From assembly GCF_040932005.1 (NCBI RefSeq), contig NZ_CP162414.1, positions 1,205,501 to 1,269,500 of the forward strand: 64,000 bases of DNA, written 5' to 3'. The notes under the pieces are model-generated. The model had not been told where the DNA came from. It ran no database searches and saw only the letters and a program-made list of their open reading frames with translations. This document shows, piece by piece, positions 55,040 to 64,000 of the stretch. This DNA is from Aestuariibius sp. HNIBRBA575 (lineage in GTDB: Bacteria; Pseudomonadota; Alphaproteobacteria; Rhodobacterales; Rhodobacteraceae). A program made the translations under genes and the position numbers. Within the stretch, counting starts at the first letter, position 1. Every line of letters begins with the position of its first letter.

Positions 55040-55345
55040 TCAGCGGCTGGCTTTTTCTGAAATCCCGGAAACACCTTCGCGCCGCGCCAGTTCTGCTTCG
55101 ATATCATCCAGATTGACGCCGCGTGCCGCACACATGACCAACAGATGATAGATCGAATCCGCCGCTTCTGAGATGAGTTTGTCGCGATCACCCTTCACCG
55201 CTTCGATGATCGCTTCCACGGCTTCTTCACCGAACTTTTCGGCGCATTTTTCCGGCCCCTTATACAGCAATTTCGCGGTCCACGAACTGTCAGGGTCGGC
55301 CCCAATGCGGGACTGAATGGTTGCGTTTAACGTCTTCAGGCTCAT
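55040..55345 (-). CDS. hisE: phosphoribosyl-ATP diphosphatase
   Basis: Second step of histidine synthesis, removing pyrophosphate from PR-ATP. The 101-residue protein has the MazG-type metal site [14 protein letters not shown] and [12 protein letters not shown]. It overlaps hisF by four bases (ATGA), so the two are translated together at the end of the hisA-hisF-hisE run. Not fused to HisI here. Confidence 0.95.
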
Positions 55346-56103
55346 GTCATCCTCACGGGGATACCTGCATCGGCCATGTGTTGTTTGGCCTCACCGATCG
55401 TATAGGTCCCAAAATGGAAAATCGACGCGGCCAACACGGCCGATGCGCCGCCTTCTGTCACGCCTTCGACCAGATGATCCAGATTTCCGACGCCCCCCGA
55501 TGCGATCACAGGCACGTTCACCGCGTCTGAAATCGCGCGGGTCAATGGCAGGTTAAACCCCGCCTTGGTGCCGTCGCGGTCCATCGAGGTCAGCAGGATT
55601 TCTCCCGCGCCTTTTTCGGCGGCAGTGATGGCAAATTCAATGGCGTCGATCCCGGTGGCTTTGCGCCCGCCATGGGTGAATATTTCCCAGCGTCCGGGTT
55701 CCACCGTTTTGGCGTCGATTGCGCAGACGATGCATTGTGATCCAAACCGCAATGCGGCTTCGGTCAGAACATCTGGGTTGGCCACCGCCGCAGAGTTAAA
55801 GCTGACTTTGTCCGCCCCAGCCAGCAACAGATTGCGCACATCTTCGTGGGTGCGCACCCCGCCACCAATGGTCAGCGGCATAAAACAATGTTCCGCCGTG
55901 CGGGTGGCCAGATCATACATTGTGCCACGATTTTCGTGGGTTGCATGAATATCAAGAAAACAAAGTTCGTCGGCACCTGCGGCGTCATAGGCGATGGCGG
56001 CATCCACCGGATCGCCAGCATCGACAAGATCGACAAAGTTCACGCCTTTGACGACACGCCCATCAGCGACATCCAGGCAAGGTATGATACGTGTTTTAAG
56101 CAT
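55342..56103 (-). CDS. hisF: imidazole glycerol phosphate synthase, cyclase subunit
   Basis: Partner of HisH; uses its ammonia to make IGP and AICAR. The 253-residue TIM barrel has the catalytic aspartates in [15 protein letters not shown] and [13 protein letters not shown], and the phosphate sites [11 protein letters not shown] and [12 protein letters not shown]. Overlaps hisE by 4 bases. A double hairpin lies between it and hisA. Confidence 0.97.
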
Positions 56104-56165
56104 GCCCGCTTGATAGGCCGCGCGACCTGAAACGGCAAGGGGTTTGGCGACCCTTCGGTTTGGGG

Positions 56166-56211
56166 CGTGGGGCAGGGCCCCACGAGGCTCAAAATCGGCA
56201 GATTTTGAGCC
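56166..56211. repeat. pair of adjacent perfect hairpins between hisA and hisF
   Basis: CGTGGGGC (56166-56173) pairs with GCCCCACG (56177-56184), and GGCTCAAAATC (56186-56196) pairs with GATTTTGAGCC (56201-56211). There is no T run. The layout resembles repetitive extragenic palindromes; it may stabilise or partly terminate the his message. Confidence 0.65.
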
Positions 56212-56229
56212 ACCTGTTCAGAAAATCGT

Positions 56230-56952
56230 TTAGGCGCGGCAGAGGGTCAACGCATCGCTTAGATCAATTGCCCCATCATAGAGCGCACGGCCAGAAATCG
56301 CGCCATTTAACGCAGCACCGCAATTTTTCAGTGCTTGCAGATCCTCAAGCGAGGACACGCCACCAGATGCAATCACAGGGATTGATACGGCATTGGCCAG
56401 ATCGGCCGTGGCCTGCACATTTGGCCCTTGCATGGCCCCATCGCGGTTGATGTCGGTGTAGATGATTGCAGCCACGCCAGCATCCTCAAAGGATTTTGCC
56501 AAATCAGTCACCATGACATCGGTTTCCTCGGCCCAGCCTTTGGTCGCCACGCGCCCGTCACGCGCGTCAATGCCCACAGCAACTTTGCCCGGAAAGGCAC
56601 GCGCCGCTTCGCGCACCAAATCAGGGTTTTCCACGGCAACCGTGCCCAAAATGACCCGTGCCAGCCCGCGATCCAGCCAGCGTTCGATTGTCGCCATGTC
56701 GCGGATCCCGCCCCCAAGCTGCGCAGGCACTTTGGTTTGTTTCAGGATTTCTTCAACTGGGGCGGCATTGACAGGTTCACCGGCAAAGGCGCCGTTTAAA
56801 TCCACCAGATGCAGCCATTCACAACCCGCATTGGCAAATTCCATCGCCTGAGCAGCCGGATTGTCGTTGAACACGGTGGCTTGATCCATTTCGCCTTTGA
56901 TCAGGCGTACGGCATTGCCGTCTTTTAGGTCGATGGCGGGATAAAGGATCAT
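56230..56952 (-). CDS. hisA: ProFAR isomerase
   Basis: Fourth step of histidine synthesis, a sugar isomerisation. The 240-residue TIM barrel has the catalytic aspartates in [14 protein letters not shown] and [15 protein letters not shown], and [14 protein letters not shown] and [13 protein letters not shown] for phosphate binding. It is first in the leftward hisA-hisF-hisE run and divergent from the DUF2147-type gene. Confidence 0.97.
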
Positions 56953-57101
56953 TTAACGTGCCTTTCACGATTTGGGCGCAATGTTGGGGCTGTTTATGCA
57001 TGTTGGCGTCCGGGATGCAACGATGCGGGGCCGACCCCACGTCATACTTGATCGGGTGGGGGGCAATGCCGCAGCATGCGTTCAGTTCATGGGAGGACAG
57101 A

Positions 57102-57488
57102 ATGAAAAAGTTTGTATTGAGCGTCGTTGGCGCAATTGCATTGGCGGGGGCGGCAACGGCGGACCCGTTAGAAGGCACGTGGCGCACAACCGCTGATGAT
57201 AATGGCAATTCGGGGCTGATTCAGGTTGCGCCCTGTGGGTCTGCGCTGTGTGGCACATTGATCCGCGCTTATGGCCCAAATGGCGCCGAAATTCCGTCTG
57301 ACAACATCGGTCAGAACATTATTTCCGAAACGGTCGCCAGTGGCGGCGGCGCATATACGGGCAAAGTGTATTCGCCGGATCGTGATAAAACCTACAATTC
57401 CCGGCTGCAGCTTAGCGGCAATCAGTTGACTGTTTCTGGCTGCGTTTTAGGGATCTGCCGCGAAGGCGGGGTCTGGACGCGCCAGTAA
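57102..57488 (+). CDS. secreted DUF2147-type protein
   Basis: A 128-residue exported protein: signal peptide (MKKFVLSVVGAIALAGAATA) and the DUF2147 pattern DPLEGTWRTTADDNGNSGLIQVAPCGSALCGTLI, GKVYSPDRDKTYNSRLQLSGNQLTVSGCVLGICREGGVW. Function unknown. GGGAGGACAG lies before the ATG at 57102. It is the only rightward gene inside the leftward histidine cluster, between hisA and hisH. Confidence 0.87.
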   Translation: MKKFVLSVVGAIALAGAATADPLEGTWRTTADDNGNSGLIQVAPCGSALCGTLIRAYGPNGAEIPSDNIGQNIISETVASGGGAYTGKVYSPDRDKTYNSRLQLSGNQLTVSGCVLGICREGGVWTRQ

Positions 57489-57512
57489 TTGCATCTCTCA
57501 AATCAGATGTAG

Positions 57513-57536
57513 CGCCCGCCGGTTTGGCGGGCGTTT
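57513..57536. terminator. intrinsic terminator between the DUF2147-type gene and hisH
   Basis: CGCCCGCC (57513-57520) pairs perfectly with GGCGGGCG (57526-57533), loop GGTTT, followed by TTTCTT. It ends the rightward gene; hisH's stop at 57538 lies within a few bases. Confidence 0.82.
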
Positions 57537-57537
57537 C

Positions 57538-58176
57538 TTATGGGGCCCAGCTTAGAAAGTTGGCGATTAGTTTCAGGCCAGCAGCTTGGCTTTTCTCAGG
57601 GTGGAACTGCATGCCAATCATGTTGTCCCGTCCCACAATGGCCGTGATGTCACCGCCGTAATCAACATGGGTCAATCGATGCTGCGTATTGTTCATAACC
57701 ATCTGATAGGAATGCACAAAATAGGCGTGATCCCCGGTGGCTACACCGTCTAGAACCGCATGTTCCTGATCGATGATCAGGTCATTCCACCCCATATGCG
57801 GCACCTTCATTTTAGGATCAGAAGGTGCAATTGGGTGAATATGCCCGTCAATCCAGCCAAAGCCCGGCGTTTCCTGATATTCAAAGCCGCTTTTGGCCAT
57901 CATCTGCATGCCAACACAGATACCTAAAAACGGAACAGCCCGGCTTTCAACGGCATCCGTGATCGCTTCGGCCAATCCGTCAACACCATGTAGCGCGGCG
58001 TGACATGCAGGAAACGCGCCGTCGCCGGGCAAAACAATCCGGTCCGCCTTGGCCACGACATCAGCCTCAGACGTGACAACAATTGTGCCGCCATCCGTTT
58101 CCCGAGCCATCCGTTCAAACGCTTTTTGCGCCGAATGCAAATTGCCACTGTCATAATCGACCAGCGCAGTCAGCAT
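57538..58176 (-). CDS. hisH: imidazole glycerol phosphate synthase, glutaminase subunit
   Basis: Supplies ammonia to HisF. The 212-residue class I amidotransferase has the nucleophile in FLGICVGMQMM and the His/Glu pair in GMQFHPEKSQAAG. Its ATG shares an A with the hisB stop (TAATG), so hisB and hisH are coupled. It is separated from hisA by the DUF2147-type gene. Confidence 0.96.
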   Translation of the reverse strand: MLTALVDYDSGNLHSAQKAFERMARETDGGTIVVTSEADVVAKADRIVLPGDGAFPACHAALHGVDGLAEAITDAVESRAVPFLGICVGMQMMAKSGFEYQETPGFGWIDGHIHPIAPSDPKMKVPHMGWNDLIIDQEHAVLDGVATGDHAYFVHSYQMVMNNTQHRLTHVDYGGDITAIVGRDNMIGMQFHPEKSQAAGLKLIANFLSWAP

Positions 58177-58763
58177 TACAATGTGCCCTTGGTCGAAGGA
58201 ATCGCATCCATTTTGCGTGGGTCCAATTCAACCGCAACCCGCAATGCGCGTGCCACAGATTTGAACATCGCCTCAGCAATATGGTGCGAATTGAACCCGT
58301 GTAGTTGATCAATATGCAGCGTCATCCCGGCATGTACCGACAGAGCTTGGAAAAATTCGCGGACCAATTCGGTATCAAACGTGCCGATTTTATCCGAGGA
58401 AAATTCGGTGTTGAAAATCAAATAGGGGCGTCCGGCCAAATCCAGTGCCGTGCGGATTTGCGCATCGTCCATCGCCAGGTGGCAGGACCCGTAACGGGTG
58501 ATTCCCCGTTTGTTTCCAAGCGCTTGGGTGATGGCTTGGCCCAATGTGATCCCCACATCTTCGACGGTGTGGTGATCATCAATATATAGATCGCCTTTGG
58601 CCCGAATGCGCATATCGATCAGCGAATGACGGGCCAGTTGATCCAGCATATGGTCAAAAAAACCAACCTTGGTCACGTTGTCATAGGACCCTGTCCCGTC
58701 AAGATTAACTTCAACGGTGATCTCGGTCTCTTCGGTTTTCCGCGTGATCGTGGCTGTGCGCAT
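58176..58763 (-). CDS. hisB: imidazoleglycerol-phosphate dehydratase
   Basis: Sixth step of histidine synthesis. The 195-residue manganese enzyme has [34 protein letters not shown] and [13 protein letters not shown], all metal-binding hallmarks. The start at 58763 ([10 protein letters not shown]) is preferred over 58787 because GGAG lies six bases before it. First gene of the leftward his cluster. Single-domain, not fused to a phosphatase. Confidence 0.96.
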
Positions 58764-58908
58764 TTTCGGCTCCGGTTTGTCGTTCAATGCCTTATAGGCG
58801 GCTGTTGCGCCGGGGCCAAGCAGCCGATTGCAAGCGCCGTTCCGCCCGTGTCCTTCTTGTCTCGGTTTTTAGAAAATGACATCAAAATCGGGGCGGGGTA
58901 TCCCTACT

Positions 58909-58936
58909 TTTACCTTGGTTTATACCACGTTACTAT
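58909..58936 (+). promoter_or_regulatory. possible promoter of the E1-like operon
   Basis: TTTACC (58909-58914) and TACTAT (58931-58936) are spaced 16 bases apart and would start transcription about 20 bases before the GTG at 58961. Both boxes are imperfect. Confidence 0.3.
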
Positions 58937-58960
58937 TTGTTAACTCGGCAGGGGGGCGCT

Positions 58961-59914
58961 GTGATACGATCATTACTTAAATCATTTCGTCACACCTATT
59001 TGGACCTGCGGCTGCGTTCTTCTGGTTTGCATATTCGAATTCTGGAACGTCCCGGTTTGTGGATGCAAGATGCTGAACTTGAACAACTTTCCGACGACTT
59101 AAGAAAAGTCGCATCAGCGACCCTGCCAGTCGGAAGCTTGACCTATGGCGTGTTCTCTGCGGATCGAAAACGAATGTCTTCTTCGATTGTGACCTTGGTG
59201 AGCCGGCCGGACGGCACACCGATCGCATTTAACGCTTTGGCGATCATGACCCTCTCAACTTTGCCAAAACCAACCGAAGTTTTGCATTTGGGATTGGTGA
59301 TGGTCGACCCCAATGAGCGTTCAAAAAACCTGTCATGGGTGCTGTATGGATTAACATGTTTTTTGTTGTTTGTGCGGCGAAAATTTCGTCCGTTATGGAT
59401 TTCAAACGTGACGCAGGTTCCAGCTGTCGTGGGCATGGTATCTGGTATGTTTTCAAATGTTTACCCATCTCCTAGCGCATCTCGGCGCACGCTTAGCCAG
59501 CTGCAGGTGGCGCGTCGAATTATGGCAGATCATCGGTATGTATTTGGGGTTGGGGACGAAGCAGACTTTGATGAAAACCGGTTTGTGATCACAAACGCCT
59601 ATACCGGCGGATCGGACGATCTGATGAAAACGTGGGAACAGGCGCCTAAACATCGTGATGACAGTTATAACGACTTTTGCGCGCGCGAACTGGACTATGA
59701 GCGGGGGGATGATGTGCTGCAGATTGGGCAATTGGACATGGCAGCCATCGGGCGATACCTCTCAAAAGAAGTGCCCAGTTCCGCATTAAGCGGACTGTTG
59801 CTCGTGGCTGGAATGGTCATTTTACGTCGATTGATCCTGCCCATTCTACATTGGTTCGAAAGTGACCAAGAATGGTCCATTCTGCGCCCCGTGAAGGACA
59901 AAACAAATGTTTAG
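58961..59914 (+). CDS. unassigned protein opening the E1-like operon (possible acyltransferase)
   Basis: A 317-residue protein that I cannot place. The middle (about residues 75-170: GTPIAFNALAIMTL, EVLHLGLVMVDPNERSKNLSWVLYGLTCFLLF) has the strand-helix order and the R-S-K-N-L turn seen in GNAT-like N-acyltransferases of the autoinducer/FeeM type, but this is a weak resemblance. A conserved-looking C-terminal part follows (RYVFGVGDEADFDENRFVITNAYTGG, KHRDDSYNDFCAREL, GDDVLQIGQ), and one hydrophobic stretch near residue 285 may be a membrane anchor. GTG at 58961 follows GGGGGG. Overlaps the next gene by 8 bases. Confidence 0.7.
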   Translation: MIRSLLKSFRHTYLDLRLRSSGLHIRILERPGLWMQDAELEQLSDDLRKVASATLPVGSLTYGVFSADRKRMSSSIVTLVSRPDGTPIAFNALAIMTLSTLPKPTEVLHLGLVMVDPNERSKNLSWVLYGLTCFLLFVRRKFRPLWISNVTQVPAVVGMVSGMFSNVYPSPSASRRTLSQLQVARRIMADHRYVFGVGDEADFDENRFVITNAYTGGSDDLMKTWEQAPKHRDDSYNDFCARELDYERGDDVLQIGQLDMAAIGRYLSKEVPSSALSGLLLVAGMVILRRLILPILHWFESDQEWSILRPVKDKTNV

Positions 59915-60776
59915 CTACGACGAAATGACAACCCGAAATCAGGGGTTTGTGTCTAACGACGAACAAAATGCGTTAAAGTCTAGCACGGTGTTTGTTTGCG
60001 GTAATGGGGGAATGGGGGGCGCTTGTATTCAGGCTTTGGTACGGATGGGAGTTGGAAAACTCATTCTTGCGGACGTAGATGAATTCGAAATTTCGAACCT
60101 GAACCGGCAGGTTTTTTGCAACTTACACGGGGTTGGATTGCACAAATCGAACGTCACTGCGAAAATGTGCCGAAACATTAATCCTGAAATCGACATCGAA
60201 GTATATGGTTTAGAATGGATGGAGTTGGCCGAAGGTTTGGTGTCTCGGTCCGATATTGTGGTTAACGGAACTGATGATTTGGCGGCTACGTTGTTGCTAT
60301 ACCGGACAGCACGCGAGCAGAACAAAGTGATGATTGACGCTTATGCCGCGCCTCTGCCCTCAGTTTATGTTACCAAGCCGACCGATCCAGCACATGAAAC
60401 TCGGTTGGGATTTCAAACAGAACAGACGGATTGGAGGTCAATCTCGCAGGACCAAAGAGAGTCCGCTTTTATGGCAGAGGCTGAGTATGTTGTCCTCAAT
60501 TCTTCATCGCGACATTACATCGATTTAGATTTGATCGGTGATGTGATCACAGGCAAACGCGGGCGTCCGAGTTTTGCCCCTATGGTCATCACAACGGGTA
60601 TGTTGATGGCATATGAATGCGCAAATGGCGTTATGGGCCGACCATTTGGTGCAAATTGCCAGGGCTATTTTTTGAACCCATATCGCGGCCGTGTTGAGCG
60701 ACCAAATCCAAAATGGATGTCCGCAGTCATACGCCCATTTGTCCGTCGGTTTCTGGCACGATTGCTAAGTCAATGA
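59907..60776 (+). CDS. E1/ThiF-like adenylyltransferase
   Basis: A 289-residue member of the ThiF/MoeB/E1 superfamily, which adenylates a protein or peptide C-terminus or other carboxylate. The ATP site is textbook: VFVCGNGGMGGACIQALVRMGVGKLILADVDEFEISNLNRQVF-type sequence at residues about 27-70, with GxGGxG, the aspartate of ADVD, and the NLNRQ arginine; DIVVNGTDD follows. The paired CxxC zinc sites of MoeB/ThiF are absent, as in stand-alone E1-like enzymes of secondary pathways. It overlaps its neighbours by 8 and 4 bases. No ubiquitin-like or ThiS-like partner is visible. Confidence 0.85.
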   Translation: MFSYDEMTTRNQGFVSNDEQNALKSSTVFVCGNGGMGGACIQALVRMGVGKLILADVDEFEISNLNRQVFCNLHGVGLHKSNVTAKMCRNINPEIDIEVYGLEWMELAEGLVSRSDIVVNGTDDLAATLLLYRTAREQNKVMIDAYAAPLPSVYVTKPTDPAHETRLGFQTEQTDWRSISQDQRESAFMAEAEYVVLNSSSRHYIDLDLIGDVITGKRGRPSFAPMVITTGMLMAYECANGVMGRPFGANCQGYFLNPYRGRVERPNPKWMSAVIRPFVRRFLARLLSQ

Positions 60777-61972
60777 TGACCGCGGCCCCATATATTGTTG
60801 ATCTTTTCCTATCGATTTCGGCGGTCATTGGATTATTGCTGATGCGGGCAATGATCGTTGATCAGGGGCGGTATGACCCACTTAATCAGCGATTTCTATT
60901 TGGCGTTCATGCGATGATTTTGCTGTTTGGTGCCCGTGCGGCCTACAGTTTGACCGATTTGAATCTTTTTCGCGCATTGGTTTTGTTTGCCGCAGCTTTG
61001 GTGCCGCTCGCTGCTCTCTTGCTCACCGAAGGTTTGTTGCGACGGCACGCCGCCAAATTCATTAAGGTCGGTTTCGCGGTGATGACCACGCTGCTGTCGG
61101 TATCAGCGTTGTTCCCGGTTGAATTGGTGGATCCGTTCAGGTTGGTGATCCTGTTGATGTTTCAGGTCGCAGGATTTTTGATCTGCGGACTGTTGGTGTT
61201 CACGCGGGATGTGTCGTCTTTGTCCCGGGCGGAAAACCAAATGGCAGAACGTATCGGGCTTTCAGTGTTTTTGTTGCTGCCATTTGCAGCGGCTGATTTC
61301 CTGATGGTGTATTTTAACCTTCCGGTTCGTGTTTCTGCTTTGGGTGTGCTGTTTTTATGTTGGTTATCAATTACTTTGGGGAAATCATCACGGTCCCATA
61401 TCGACGCATTGATGGGGTTTTGCGTAACCGTTGTCGCCGCAATTTTATCCGGTGCAACCGTTTCATTTTTGATGGGGTTCAGCTGGAATGCGACGATCAT
61501 GACAGTGGCGATTTTGTTGGGATCGGCGCTTTGCGCTGCGCTTTATAATGAAATTCGAACCTTAAAAACAGAGGCACAAGGCGTTGCTGTTTTAGAGGAA
61601 ATGTCGAAAAATTCGGCGTCCTCTCCTATGGATTTCCTACGAAATGTTGTTGGGAATATGGACAATGACGGGGTCGCATTGATTGACTTAGATACGTTAC
61701 ACGATTGCCAAGAAGAGGTTCTGACCGAGTTGTTTCGCAAACATCCCGTCCTGCGACGCTCGGATCCAATCCCGTCAAACCCAGACTTGGCAGAGCATAA
61801 ATCACATCTGTTTGAGCGATATCAGGCGTCCCATATTCTATGTGCTCAGGCCCAGCCATTGACGTTGATCGCTTTGTCGATCCCGATGATCGCGGCAACA
61901 AAACGTGTGGAGTCTGAGCTGAACGCAGCACAGAGTTTTTCGCGTTTGTTGGAGGTTAAAAATGCTGAATGA
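60773..61972 (+). CDS. polytopic membrane protein with unassigned cytosolic tail
   Basis: A 399-residue protein with about eight or nine membrane helices in the first 265 residues (for example LFLSISAVIGLLLMRAMIV, FGVHAMILLFGARAAYSL, LVLFAAALVPLAALLLTEG, AILSGATVSFLMGF) and a soluble tail from about residue 270 (PMDFLRNVVGNMDNDGVALIDLDTLHDCQEEVLTELFRKHP) of unknown family. The topology resembles a multi-helix sensory input module, but no kinase or cyclase follows. Starts in the ATGATG overlap with the E1-like stop and overlaps the nitroreductase gene by 11 bases. Confidence 0.75.
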   Translation: MMTAAPYIVDLFLSISAVIGLLLMRAMIVDQGRYDPLNQRFLFGVHAMILLFGARAAYSLTDLNLFRALVLFAAALVPLAALLLTEGLLRRHAAKFIKVGFAVMTTLLSVSALFPVELVDPFRLVILLMFQVAGFLICGLLVFTRDVSSLSRAENQMAERIGLSVFLLLPFAAADFLMVYFNLPVRVSALGVLFLCWLSITLGKSSRSHIDALMGFCVTVVAAILSGATVSFLMGFSWNATIMTVAILLGSALCAALYNEIRTLKTEAQGVAVLEEMSKNSASSPMDFLRNVVGNMDNDGVALIDLDTLHDCQEEVLTELFRKHPVLRRSDPIPSNPDLAEHKSHLFERYQASHILCAQAQPLTLIALSIPMIAATKRVESELNAAQSFSRLLEVKNAE

Positions 61973-62921
61973 TCAGTCGTTTAGATCGGTGGTCGCGCGT
62001 GCCTGTCTGGCGCCATCGGTGCATAACATTCAACCAACGCGCTGGCATCGGTCAGACGATGGTATCGACGTTTTTTGCGATTTGACGCAATCGCTACCAG
62101 TGGGCGATCCACACCACCTTGATGCGGGTCTGTCATCTGGCGCTGCAATCGAAGCAACGGTGCTGGCGCTGTCTGAAATGGGGGTTTCAGCGCAGGTTGA
62201 GGAACGCTGGGACGCGCATTCAGATTTAAAACCAGTCGCGCATATTCGTCTGCAATCAGGACTGCAGGATGGACTAAGCCGTCAGTTGGAAAACCGGTTT
62301 ACTTGGCGTGGAAAATTCGCGGATCAAACGCCTGACCTGTTTGGTTGGAGCCGCAGCGACACATTTGTGATCACAGATGCAAAACGACGAAATTGGTTGG
62401 CAGAGCTGAATGACCAAACCAGTTACCGAATTATGCAAAATCCAGCATTTCGCAAAGAGCTGCTAAGCTGGATGCGATTGCGCGACACACATCCACGTTT
62501 GGGCTTGGATGGAATGGGGCGAGAGGCCTGCCAAATGAGCGATTTGCAAGCCCGCATGGCGGGATTGGCCTTGGGTCCTCTTTGGGGAATGCTGAACCTA
62601 TTTGGTGCAACAAAATCAATCACATCTGAGGCCGAAGCGACCAAAAGCGCCCCGGTGATCGCCGCGTTTCATCAGCCCACAGAAGCAAGCCCAATTGCCA
62701 GAGGCCGCGCCTATTTGAGAATGTGGTTAGAGGCGACGTCGCTCGGATTCTCAGGATGGCCAATGGCGGCGTTGTCCGACGATCCATCCGCAAATGCCGA
62801 AATTTGCGCGCGTCTCGGGATCGGTGCGGATCGTGACTTGGTTCAGGTTATTCGCTTTGGGGTCGCAATGGGGCCACCGCCCGCAAGAGCGCGGCGCCCG
62901 TTGGATGAGTTGATCATCTAA
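61962..62921 (+). CDS. nitroreductase-family protein (Acg-like)
   Basis: A 319-residue flavin-type protein. LAPSVHNIQPTRW near the N-terminus is the FMN-site arginine/serine-asparagine pattern of nitroreductase-fold proteins, followed by DAGLSSGAAIEATVLALSEMG and, near the C-terminus, GRAYLRMWLEATSLGFSGWPMAAL. The length and pattern resemble the Acg/Rv1355c-type subgroup more than small nitroreductases. It may oxidise or reduce the product of the E1-like enzyme. Last gene of the four-gene run; its stop overlaps the stop of the opposing peroxidase-like gene by 4 bases. Confidence 0.8.
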   Translation: MLNDQSFRSVVARACLAPSVHNIQPTRWHRSDDGIDVFCDLTQSLPVGDPHHLDAGLSSGAAIEATVLALSEMGVSAQVEERWDAHSDLKPVAHIRLQSGLQDGLSRQLENRFTWRGKFADQTPDLFGWSRSDTFVITDAKRRNWLAELNDQTSYRIMQNPAFRKELLSWMRLRDTHPRLGLDGMGREACQMSDLQARMAGLALGPLWGMLNLFGATKSITSEAEATKSAPVIAAFHQPTEASPIARGRAYLRMWLEATSLGFSGWPMAALSDDPSANAEICARLGIGADRDLVQVIRFGVAMGPPPARARRPLDELII

Positions 62922-64000
62922 TCAACAGGCAGTCCAGACGGCACGGATTCCGGGGCACCGAGGGGGCGATAAAGAGCGGTTTCGCCGGTTAGCGCCTGCA
63001 AAAACGCAACCAAATCATCAATGTCCTGATCGGTTAAGGTCAGCGGAGTGATATCGAGGTGATTGCGTTGACGCTCCATTTCCATTTCGTCAGATTGAAT
63101 TGCAAAATCAATGGGTTCCAACCAAGGCGCAAGTGGGAGCTGCGCCTGATCATGGGGCCAATTGTCCCGTGACGTGAGCGGGTCCAAATGATGTCGGATC
63201 ATAGCGTCCAACGTCGCAAATGCACCATTATGCCCATAAGGTGCGGTGAGCGCGACATTGCGCAATGATGGCGTACGAAACCGATACGCATCTTGCAATA
63301 AATTGGTTTTTCCCATGCGTCCAACATCGCGGGGGATCGGATCATGAACCCGTGTGCGCCCGGGTCCAAACGCGGGCAGGGACAAGGCGTGAAAGTCCTG
63401 ATCGCTAAACAACGGCCCCGAATGACAGCTGGAACAGGCACCCGCTCCAAAGAAAATCTGACGTCCGCGCTCGGCCGCTTCGGGCAGGGGGGTGCCAGCC
63501 AGATAGGCATCATAGGGGCTGTCAAAGCTCTGCCATTCCGTGATTTCAAACGCGGCGATTGCATTGGCAATTTCTACGATTGTGATCTGGTCTGGACTGT
63601 CGATATGATCAAACGCATCTACAAACAGCGCCCCATATTCGGGAATGATCCGCACCCGTTTTGCCAAAATCGGCCAGGGCGCATCGATGCGATCATGCAG
63701 TGCCCCCACGACATCATTTTCCCCCAGATTGCCGGCCATTTCAAATTGGGCGACCAGCGGAAACAAGGCCTGAGCGGCTAGAATATTGTCCAAACCTTGT
63801 GGCAGCCATTCCTGAGCGGGGGAATTAAAACCATTCCCGTAAATGTCCGAAACCTCTAATCGGCCATCATGAAATAACACATCCACGTCGCGGTGGCCCA
63901 GATTCCACAGGGCAGGGGCGTTGCGTGGCACGCGTTTGATAATGTCCCCGGCAACCCGATCGGGCCCCAGACCGACACCGCCTTCTCCGATGCCAAGACT
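62918..64000 (-). CDS. di-heme cytochrome c peroxidase/MauG-family protein (5' end beyond window)
   Basis: The frame is open from base 64000 leftward to the stop at 62918, giving 360 residues of the C-terminal part. The visible heme site is CSSCH in GACSSCHSGPLFSD, with GPGR, FRTPSLRNVALTAPYGHNGAF (distal-ligand region) and TDQDIDDLVAFLQALTG at the C-terminus. The first heme site and the signal peptide must lie beyond the right edge. An internal GTG at 63931 could be mistaken for the start, but the frame continues upstream with GVGLGPDRVAGD. Periplasmic. Confidence 0.9.
   Translation of the reverse strand, partial: SLGIGEGGVGLGPDRVAGDIIKRVPRNAPALWNLGHRDVDVLFHDGRLEVSDIYGNGFNSPAQEWLPQGLDNILAAQALFPLVAQFEMAGNLGENDVVGALHDRIDAPWPILAKRVRIIPEYGALFVDAFDHIDSPDQITIVEIANAIAAFEITEWQSFDSPYDAYLAGTPLPEAAERGRQIFFGAGACSSCHSGPLFSDQDFHALSLPAFGPGRTRVHDPIPRDVGRMGKTNLLQDAYRFRTPSLRNVALTAPYGHNGAFATLDAMIRHHLDPLTSRDNWPHDQAQLPLAPWLEPIDFAIQSDEMEMERQRNHLDITPLTLTDQDIDDLVAFLQALTGETALYRPLGAPESVPSGLPVD

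Follow-up and report, generated by a model that had tools for sequence, protein, structure and literature searches.

Among described gene systems, those closest to the operon studied here, genes A to D of Aestuariibius sp. HNIBRBA575 (contig NZ_CP162414.1, positions 1,205,501 to 1,269,500; this whole stretch of 64,000 nucleotides is called the window), are the clusters for oxazolones and related acyl amino acids. In tyzACB of Mycobacterium tuberculosis, which leads to acyl-tyrazolone, TyzA N-acylates tyrosine or phenylalanine, the ThiF protein TyzB cyclises the product with adenosine triphosphate (ATP), and TyzC of the nitroreductase superfamily desaturates it with O2; the transporter gene mmpL9 flanks tyz (PMC10404671). 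In the trzAS system of mycobacteria and rhodococci, TrzS, which is the fusion protein Rv1355c, is the cyclase/desaturase of tryptazolone biosynthesis, and its cyclisation needs an aspartate modelled near ATP (PMC12856293). Oxazolones do not survive acid or methanol (PMC12856293). An acyltransferase, a ThiF protein and a nitroreductase are likewise combined in oxzAB of Pseudoalteromonas rubra and in the nasY/ThiF/nitroreductase clusters for stieleriacines, thalassotalic and kyonggic acids, where the ThiF and nitroreductase genes go with dehydrotyrosine products and their absence with saturated products (PMC12479983). In two producers these genes overlap or are separated by short gaps, and in a producer of saturated compounds the candidate clusters are without ThiF and nitroreductase genes (PMC12479983).

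In the window operon an acyltransferase-like gene, a ThiF-type gene and a nitroreductase-family gene are joined by a gene for a membrane protein. The gene set is sparse, patchy and partly plasmid-borne, and its core in alphaproteobacteria is A and C, a pairing around which B and D can be absent and which the initial annotation of this DNA had not foreseen. By analogy with the described systems, the operon may make an N-acyl amino acid, with B closing its ring and D introducing a double bond, a reading to which we give a probability of about 0.45. The genes are as follows (aa, amino acids; FMN, flavin mononucleotide).

58961..59914, + strand: gene A, predicted GNAT-fold acyltransferase, 317 aa, predicted fold without family assignment
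59907..60776, + strand: gene B, ThiF/E1-like adenylyltransferase, 289 aa, ATP-binding and adenylation motifs intact, without CxxC pairs
60773..61972, + strand: gene C, membrane protein with nine helices and a cytosolic alpha/beta tail, 399 aa, from predicted helices and a model
61962..62921, + strand: gene D, nitroreductase-superfamily FMN oxidoreductase of Acg-like type, proposed as desaturase, 319 aa, from family models

The coordinates confirmed the gene overlaps reported before, 8 bases for A/B (59907-59914), 4 for B/C (60773-60776) and 11 for C/D (61962-61972). For gene A the GTG at 58961 was preferred over an in-frame TTG upstream at 58937 because the homologues align from about the GTG.

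Two features of oxazolone clusters were found here: the ThiF-type cyclase motifs are intact in B, and the adjacent acyltransferase is predicted to have a GNAT fold. As in the window, tyzACB has separate genes for a fold-identified acyltransferase, a ThiF-type cyclase and a nitroreductase-superfamily desaturase, and TyzA (322 aa) is similar in length to A. Compared by description, tyzA lies on the opposite strand, unlike A, and TyzC is FDO-A in the FDO-A/B scheme of nitroreductase-superfamily enzymes (PMC10404671), whereas the model scores of D lean towards Acg/Rv3131. A C-like protein is not described in the accessible text on tyzACB, where mmpL9 is the nearest membrane gene (PMC10404671), and the phrase 'membrane protein' is absent from the main text of PMC10404671, PMC12856293 and PMC12479983. 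The trzAS system has the same three activities as are proposed here, but its ThiF and oxidase parts are fused, and B and D both match the Rv1355c model NF005901 with scores far below its cut-off.

Rv1355c had already been the lead in the initial annotation, which supposed the separate genes to be a split form of its pathway. The pairing of B and D does point to that pathway, but the idea of a split form was already published (PMC10404671). The claim of an undescribed system is unsupported because Rv1355c is TrzS and tyzACB is the split form in print, so that the chemistry is published for relatives (PMC12856293, PMC10404671). For the operon itself no published description was found in a search whose coverage leaves out most subscription journals. 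The elements that look new are the Acg-type flavin partner, the optional extra GNAT gene described below, and a receptor-like membrane protein that accompanies A throughout the family sample, bar two genomes with a broken A.

Distribution, gene order and inheritance

A profile of A was searched in three genome samples, with the window's own genome counted in. Matches came from 4 of the 385 class-sample genomes (one match spurious), 5 of the 299 phylum-sample genomes and 19 of the 394 family-sample genomes, among which two belong to the window's species; the family-sample searches scored 4-5 first-look candidates per genome, so that single misses are possible. The A match L052 (genome G172) was judged spurious, with 26 bits in the class sample and 22 bits inside a 1606-aa frame. 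The profile of C was found in 17 of the 394 family-sample genomes, every one among the 19 with A. The remaining two, G505 and G623, hold only an A fragment or an A with stops. In G505 (L050 5032-5809) the beginning of A runs directly into the remainder of D, which has a stop, and B and C are missing as in a deletion scar; the copy in G623 (L049) is decayed, with stops within A.

The 24 loci were arranged as A-B-C-D (7, one from the window's species), A-B-C-G-D (6), A-C-D (1) and A-C (5); two were cut by contig ends (L046, L048), two decayed and one spurious. In G541, which has a cut locus, further pieces of A, B, C and D were found in order on another contig. A B orthologue elsewhere in the genome was found neither in the A-C genomes G288, G346, G868, G946 and G961 nor in the A-C-D genome G433 (64-81 bits only), and a genome-wide search of the five A-C genomes gave no close D (best 98 bits).

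Gene G encodes a GNAT protein of about 370 aa. It is absent from the window and separates C from D in Maritalea, in rhizobia and in part of the Rhodobacteraceae. GNAT matches were obtained for its first half in L005 and for its second half in L045 and L080. Between A and gene G no profile match was found beyond a short GNAT loop (probability 0.3%).

Gene G: L005 10096-11208
Gene G: L080 9982-11088
Gene G: L081 9961-11064
Gene G: L082 9887-10978

Maritalea, rhizobial plasmids and further Rhodobacteraceae contain orthologous clusters. The plasmid collection has B beside A in 10 records from rhizobia (Ensifer, Shinella, Rhizobium), and the three that were opened all read A-B-C-G-D. Since the gene order recurs in other genera, the operon is more than a chance arrangement, and the co-occurrence beyond close relatives that had been set as a test was observed as the same families in recurring order. 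On two of the plasmids a gene for an acyl-[acyl carrier protein]--phospholipid O-acyltransferase adjoins the operon (L080 12131-14918, with AMP-binding and acyltransferase domains; L081 12258-14906).

Across 14 complete loci, genes A to D had correlated pairwise divergences, with r from 0.45 to 0.85, highest for A-C and lowest for B-D, and at most 6 of 2000 permutations were as high. This set excludes L037 (same species), L044 and L047 (limits of the open reading frames unsure) and the loci lacking genes. The correlation shows inheritance as a unit, not a function.

A distant A was detected in three Vibrio records (23% identity, E 2e-15 in a single comparison). On a plasmid of Vibrio sp. THAF191d (L083 6722-8637) it abuts a gene for a 249-aa ThiF protein, with one base shared, and in this one record that was opened neither C nor D was found nearby. 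L083 is possibly a minimal A-ThiF pair in gammaproteobacteria.

Families and predicted folds of the proteins

The predicted structure of A has a GNAT fold, in keeping with the acyltransferase-like character first suspected for it, and the protein carries a hydrophobic C-terminal helix at about residues 273-299.

B had been described as a ThiF/E1-like protein without CxxC pairs. It scores 112.6 bits against Pfam ThiF, and a CxxC pair, which marks MoeB/ThiF E1 enzymes with structural zinc, was found in none of the 14 B proteins, the window's included. B was aligned with E. coli ThiF, and the expected ATP-binding and adenylation residues were invariant in 13 of 13 B proteins. Its best NCBIfam model was PRK08223 (NF006077) with 103.7 bits, below the cut-off of 266, followed by ThiF, MoeB and, lower, Rv1355c (NF005901; 55 bits, under the cut-off); in 14 control genomes no member passed the NF005901 cut-off. 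PaaA and MccB were among the PDB matches.

In a tree of 29 rows the 14 B proteins formed their own clade (99/99), seven ThiF proteins of the PRK08223/PRK14852 type grouped apart from them (97/100), and E. coli MoeB, ThiF and TcdA, the two further ThiF-family proteins of the window's genome and two others were separated as well (branch 91/82). The two own-genome paralogues group with E. coli MoeB and ThiF. The tree is moderate evidence because it was midpoint-rooted, has very long branches (Vibrio ThiF, TcdA) and drew a program warning that joins may be false. B as a housekeeping ThiF was rejected on the tree, the presence of the two paralogues and the missing CxxC pair. A chance overlap of four genes without a common role, serving in housekeeping (sulfur-carrier activation) or in detoxification by a nitroreductase, is very improbable and was largely refuted: B and D do come from large families with many housekeeping members, but B branches apart from the paralogues, and both the gene order and the co-divergence hold in different families as well as on plasmids.

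Locus L073 has in a row a TIGR03694 exosortase-type/FeeM acyltransferase (241 bits; Pfam FeeM 32.8), a PRK08223 ThiF (406 bits) and a nitroreductase, which resembles the published arrangement for N-acyl-dehydrotyrosine. B is 31% identical to this ThiF over 182 residues, starting at the first residue. PRK08223-type ThiF proteins beside a PEP-CTERM/exosortase acyltransferase, as in L073, are like B in N-terminal motif and start and unlike it in that B stays under the 266 bits of their model and has a clade of its own. A FeeM/exosortase-type acyltransferase gene adjoins a PRK08223/PRK14852-type ThiF gene in L071 and L073, and genes resembling sugar-nucleotide dehydrogenases, assigned by eye, lie near such a ThiF gene in L068 and L070. 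These four loci hint that exopolysaccharide/PEP-CTERM regions may be connected with the chemistry of acyl amino acids.

D is likely a flavin enzyme, judged from its motifs and family matches. Nitroreductase was the only Pfam family at E < 0.01, with 23.3 bits, just below the cut-off of 23.5. The Acg-like assignment made before agrees with the family models, among which D scored best on the Acg/Rv3131 FMN oxidoreductase (NF047509; 148 bits, below the cut-off of 199) and reached 39 bits, below the cut-off, on Rv1355c. The D proteins of Maritalea (137 vs 66 bits) and Ensifer (156 vs 64) also preferred Acg/Rv3131 over Rv1355c, and the nitroreductase of L073 showed the reverse preference (Rv1355c 89, Acg 78 bits). 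The only sequence match of D to a solved structure at E <= 1 was Acg (2ymv, E 0.0011). Motifs of the types APSxHNxQP and R-x-x-x-R are conserved in the D orthologues.

For C, nine helices and a small alpha/beta tail were predicted, which fits the eight- or nine-helix protein with a soluble tail noted before. The tail (about residues 285-398) is predicted to be cytosolic, with a GAF-like order seen by eye only, and the helix arrangement of the model appears similar to that of G-protein-coupled receptors; C is possibly a receptor. Foldseek, with match lists covering residues 1-267, gave no significant match (best E 0.02). Pfam PF07695 (7TMR-DISM_7TM) matched 2 of 28 C members at E up to 1, the better one, P0208, with 24.4 bits against a cut-off of 29; the window's own C matched no sensor family, PF07695 included. 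Distant homologues of C (P0204-P0209) scored about 60-76 bits. The alkaline-ceramidase family has a triple-histidine zinc site, and its member ACER3 appeared at Foldseek rank 49. This reading of C as a zinc hydrolase was dropped because H92 is the sole histidine among the invariant columns of its membrane part.

Proposed pathway and alternative readings

The oxazolone-type reading would have the operon produce an amino-acid-derived acyl lipid at the inner membrane. A, with its membrane-seeking C-terminal helix and a fold known from a model, would acylate an amino acid on its amine. B would use ATP to adenylate the carboxylate of the resulting N-acyl amino acid, whose amide oxygen would then close the ring to an oxazolone, as with TyzB, OxzB and TrzS. 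D would then oxidise the alpha-beta bond of the amino acid with FMN and O2 to the dehydro form, as with TyzC and TrzS. C is presumed to be the membrane partner of A, in a fixed core in alphaproteobacteria, and with its nine-helix receptor-like body and cytosolic tail it may bind the product of A as a sensor or carrier; a role as carrier or as part of an enzyme complex with A would suit the data equally. Where only A and C occur, synthesis would end with the unmodified acyl amino acid, and B, D and the extra GNAT protein would perform tailoring steps. The reactions, the identity of the amino acid, the acyl chain and the role of C are all parts that we infer, whereas predicted folds, motifs, gene order and co-occurrence are shown.

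Several results weigh against this reading. By model scores D appears to lean more towards FDO-B than the oxazolone desaturases described so far do, and current data indicate no part of the FDO-B (Acg-type) proteins in oxazolone synthesis (PMC10404671). Because one A-C-D locus is without B and five loci consist of A and C, an oxazolone cannot be the product everywhere, and the Vibrio A beside a ThiF gene without C means that the A-C pair is not universal. No family model was passed by C. Pfam FeeM (PF21926) matched none of 13 A proteins at E up to 1, whereas the positive controls L071 and L073 did match, and the profile of A did not match a set of four FeeM-type sequences. This profile comparison is weak because of the four sequences two (L071, L073) were checked by Pfam; L070 and L072 were included because they resemble L073 (52% and 26% identity).

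Membership of A in the FeeM family by sequence is thus unsupported. The absence of FeeM structures among the fold matches listed for A is no evidence against a FeeM relation. A appears to be an acyltransferase without a detected FeeM sequence link and as such looks new; TyzA, TrzA, OxzA and NasY were compared by description only, and A differs from the oxzAB/nasY setting in having no FeeM-family match. Elsewhere in the window's genome, not near the operon, one FeeM match was barely over the threshold (G000:C1:2070987-2071340, 27.4 bits vs 27).

GNAT-fold synthases include the acyl-homoserine lactone (AHL) synthases and FeeM, and LuxM/LuxN is a synthase/receptor pairing. With a GNAT-fold synthase tied to a nine-helix protein of receptor-like shape, the fixed A-C pair resembles LuxM/LuxN, without membership being claimed. 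It is conceivable, though unlikely, that A makes an acylated signal for which C is the dedicated membrane receptor, while B, D and G tailor the signal. The nine-helix body of C would then correspond to the AHL receptor LuxN, which is predicted to have nine transmembrane helices (PMC5007282), and its tail would signal to an unlinked partner. Against this stand the missing Foldseek and sensor-family matches of C, its lack of a recognised output domain and the finding that no regulator is consistently adjacent across 23 loci; LysR-like genes were present in the fetched stretches of five, and a TetR-like family, recognised by eye, only in three g303 genomes. A bolder version, rather improbable, makes A and C a new kind of acyl-signal synthase with its membrane receptor, neither of them detectably related in sequence to autoinducer synthases or receptors already described; optional ThiF cyclase, Acg-type desaturase and GNAT genes would upgrade the signal to an oxazolone or dehydro-acyl-amino acid and give lineage-specific dialects.

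A membrane lipid pathway without oxazolone is also an unlikely reading. A, with G where present, would acylate an amine lipid head group, B would activate a carboxylate that is then joined to another partner through an amide or ester bond, in the manner of MccB or PaaA, D would be a reductase or desaturase of the acyl part, and C an integral subunit or flippase. The hydrophobic C-terminal helix of A, the O-acyltransferase gene beside the operon on two rhizobial plasmids, the GNAT matches in the two halves of G proteins and the existence of ThiF relatives with other roles, PaaA and MccB among the PDB matches, are consistent with it. However, the set of acyltransferase, ThiF and nitroreductase has a direct oxazolone precedent, and the best NCBIfam model of B is the one reached by the ThiF beside a FeeM-type acyltransferase.

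What oxazolones do physiologically has been called a major unresolved question (PMC12856293). In the present system the acyltransferase is bound to a single membrane protein, and the genes of oxazolone type vary in their presence. Should C bind or sense the product of A, this would give a direct experimental handle on the purpose of such lipids in cultivated alphaproteobacteria such as Maritalea and Ensifer. The oxazolone toolkit would also gain an acyltransferase from beyond the FeeM sequence family, together with flavin enzymes of the Acg type, a group of largely open function.

Surroundings of the operon

In a consensus scan of 58700-63200 no promoter-like site was found upstream of A, one lay within D, and a single terminator-like site was on the other strand, with none on the + strand; both counts were under the shuffled means. 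Downstream of D a convergent gene overlaps its end by 4 bases and is possibly an associate of the operon.

62918..64000, - strand: diheme cytochrome c peroxidase (CCP)/MauG-type protein, truncated by the window end

A c-type cytochrome gene with two CxxCH sites is close to the operon in 7 of 23 loci scanned, a raw count in which L037 stands for the window's species, and in 5 of these it is convergent and overlaps the end of D by 4-14 bases. L037 has the complete copy of the convergent gene. As a speculation, D-type oxidases might release H2O2, which would link D to the cytochrome neighbour.

CCP/MauG-type: L037 9033-10733; L039 10449-12155; L040 5076-6395
RoxA-like: L005 12187-13887; L042 3517-5193; L082 11949-13349
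Cytochrome assigned by clustering only: L043 1086-2801

On the other side, the operon is directly adjoined by histidine biosynthesis genes on the - strand (55040-58787), which we take, by eye, to be hisE, hisF, hisA, hisH and hisB.

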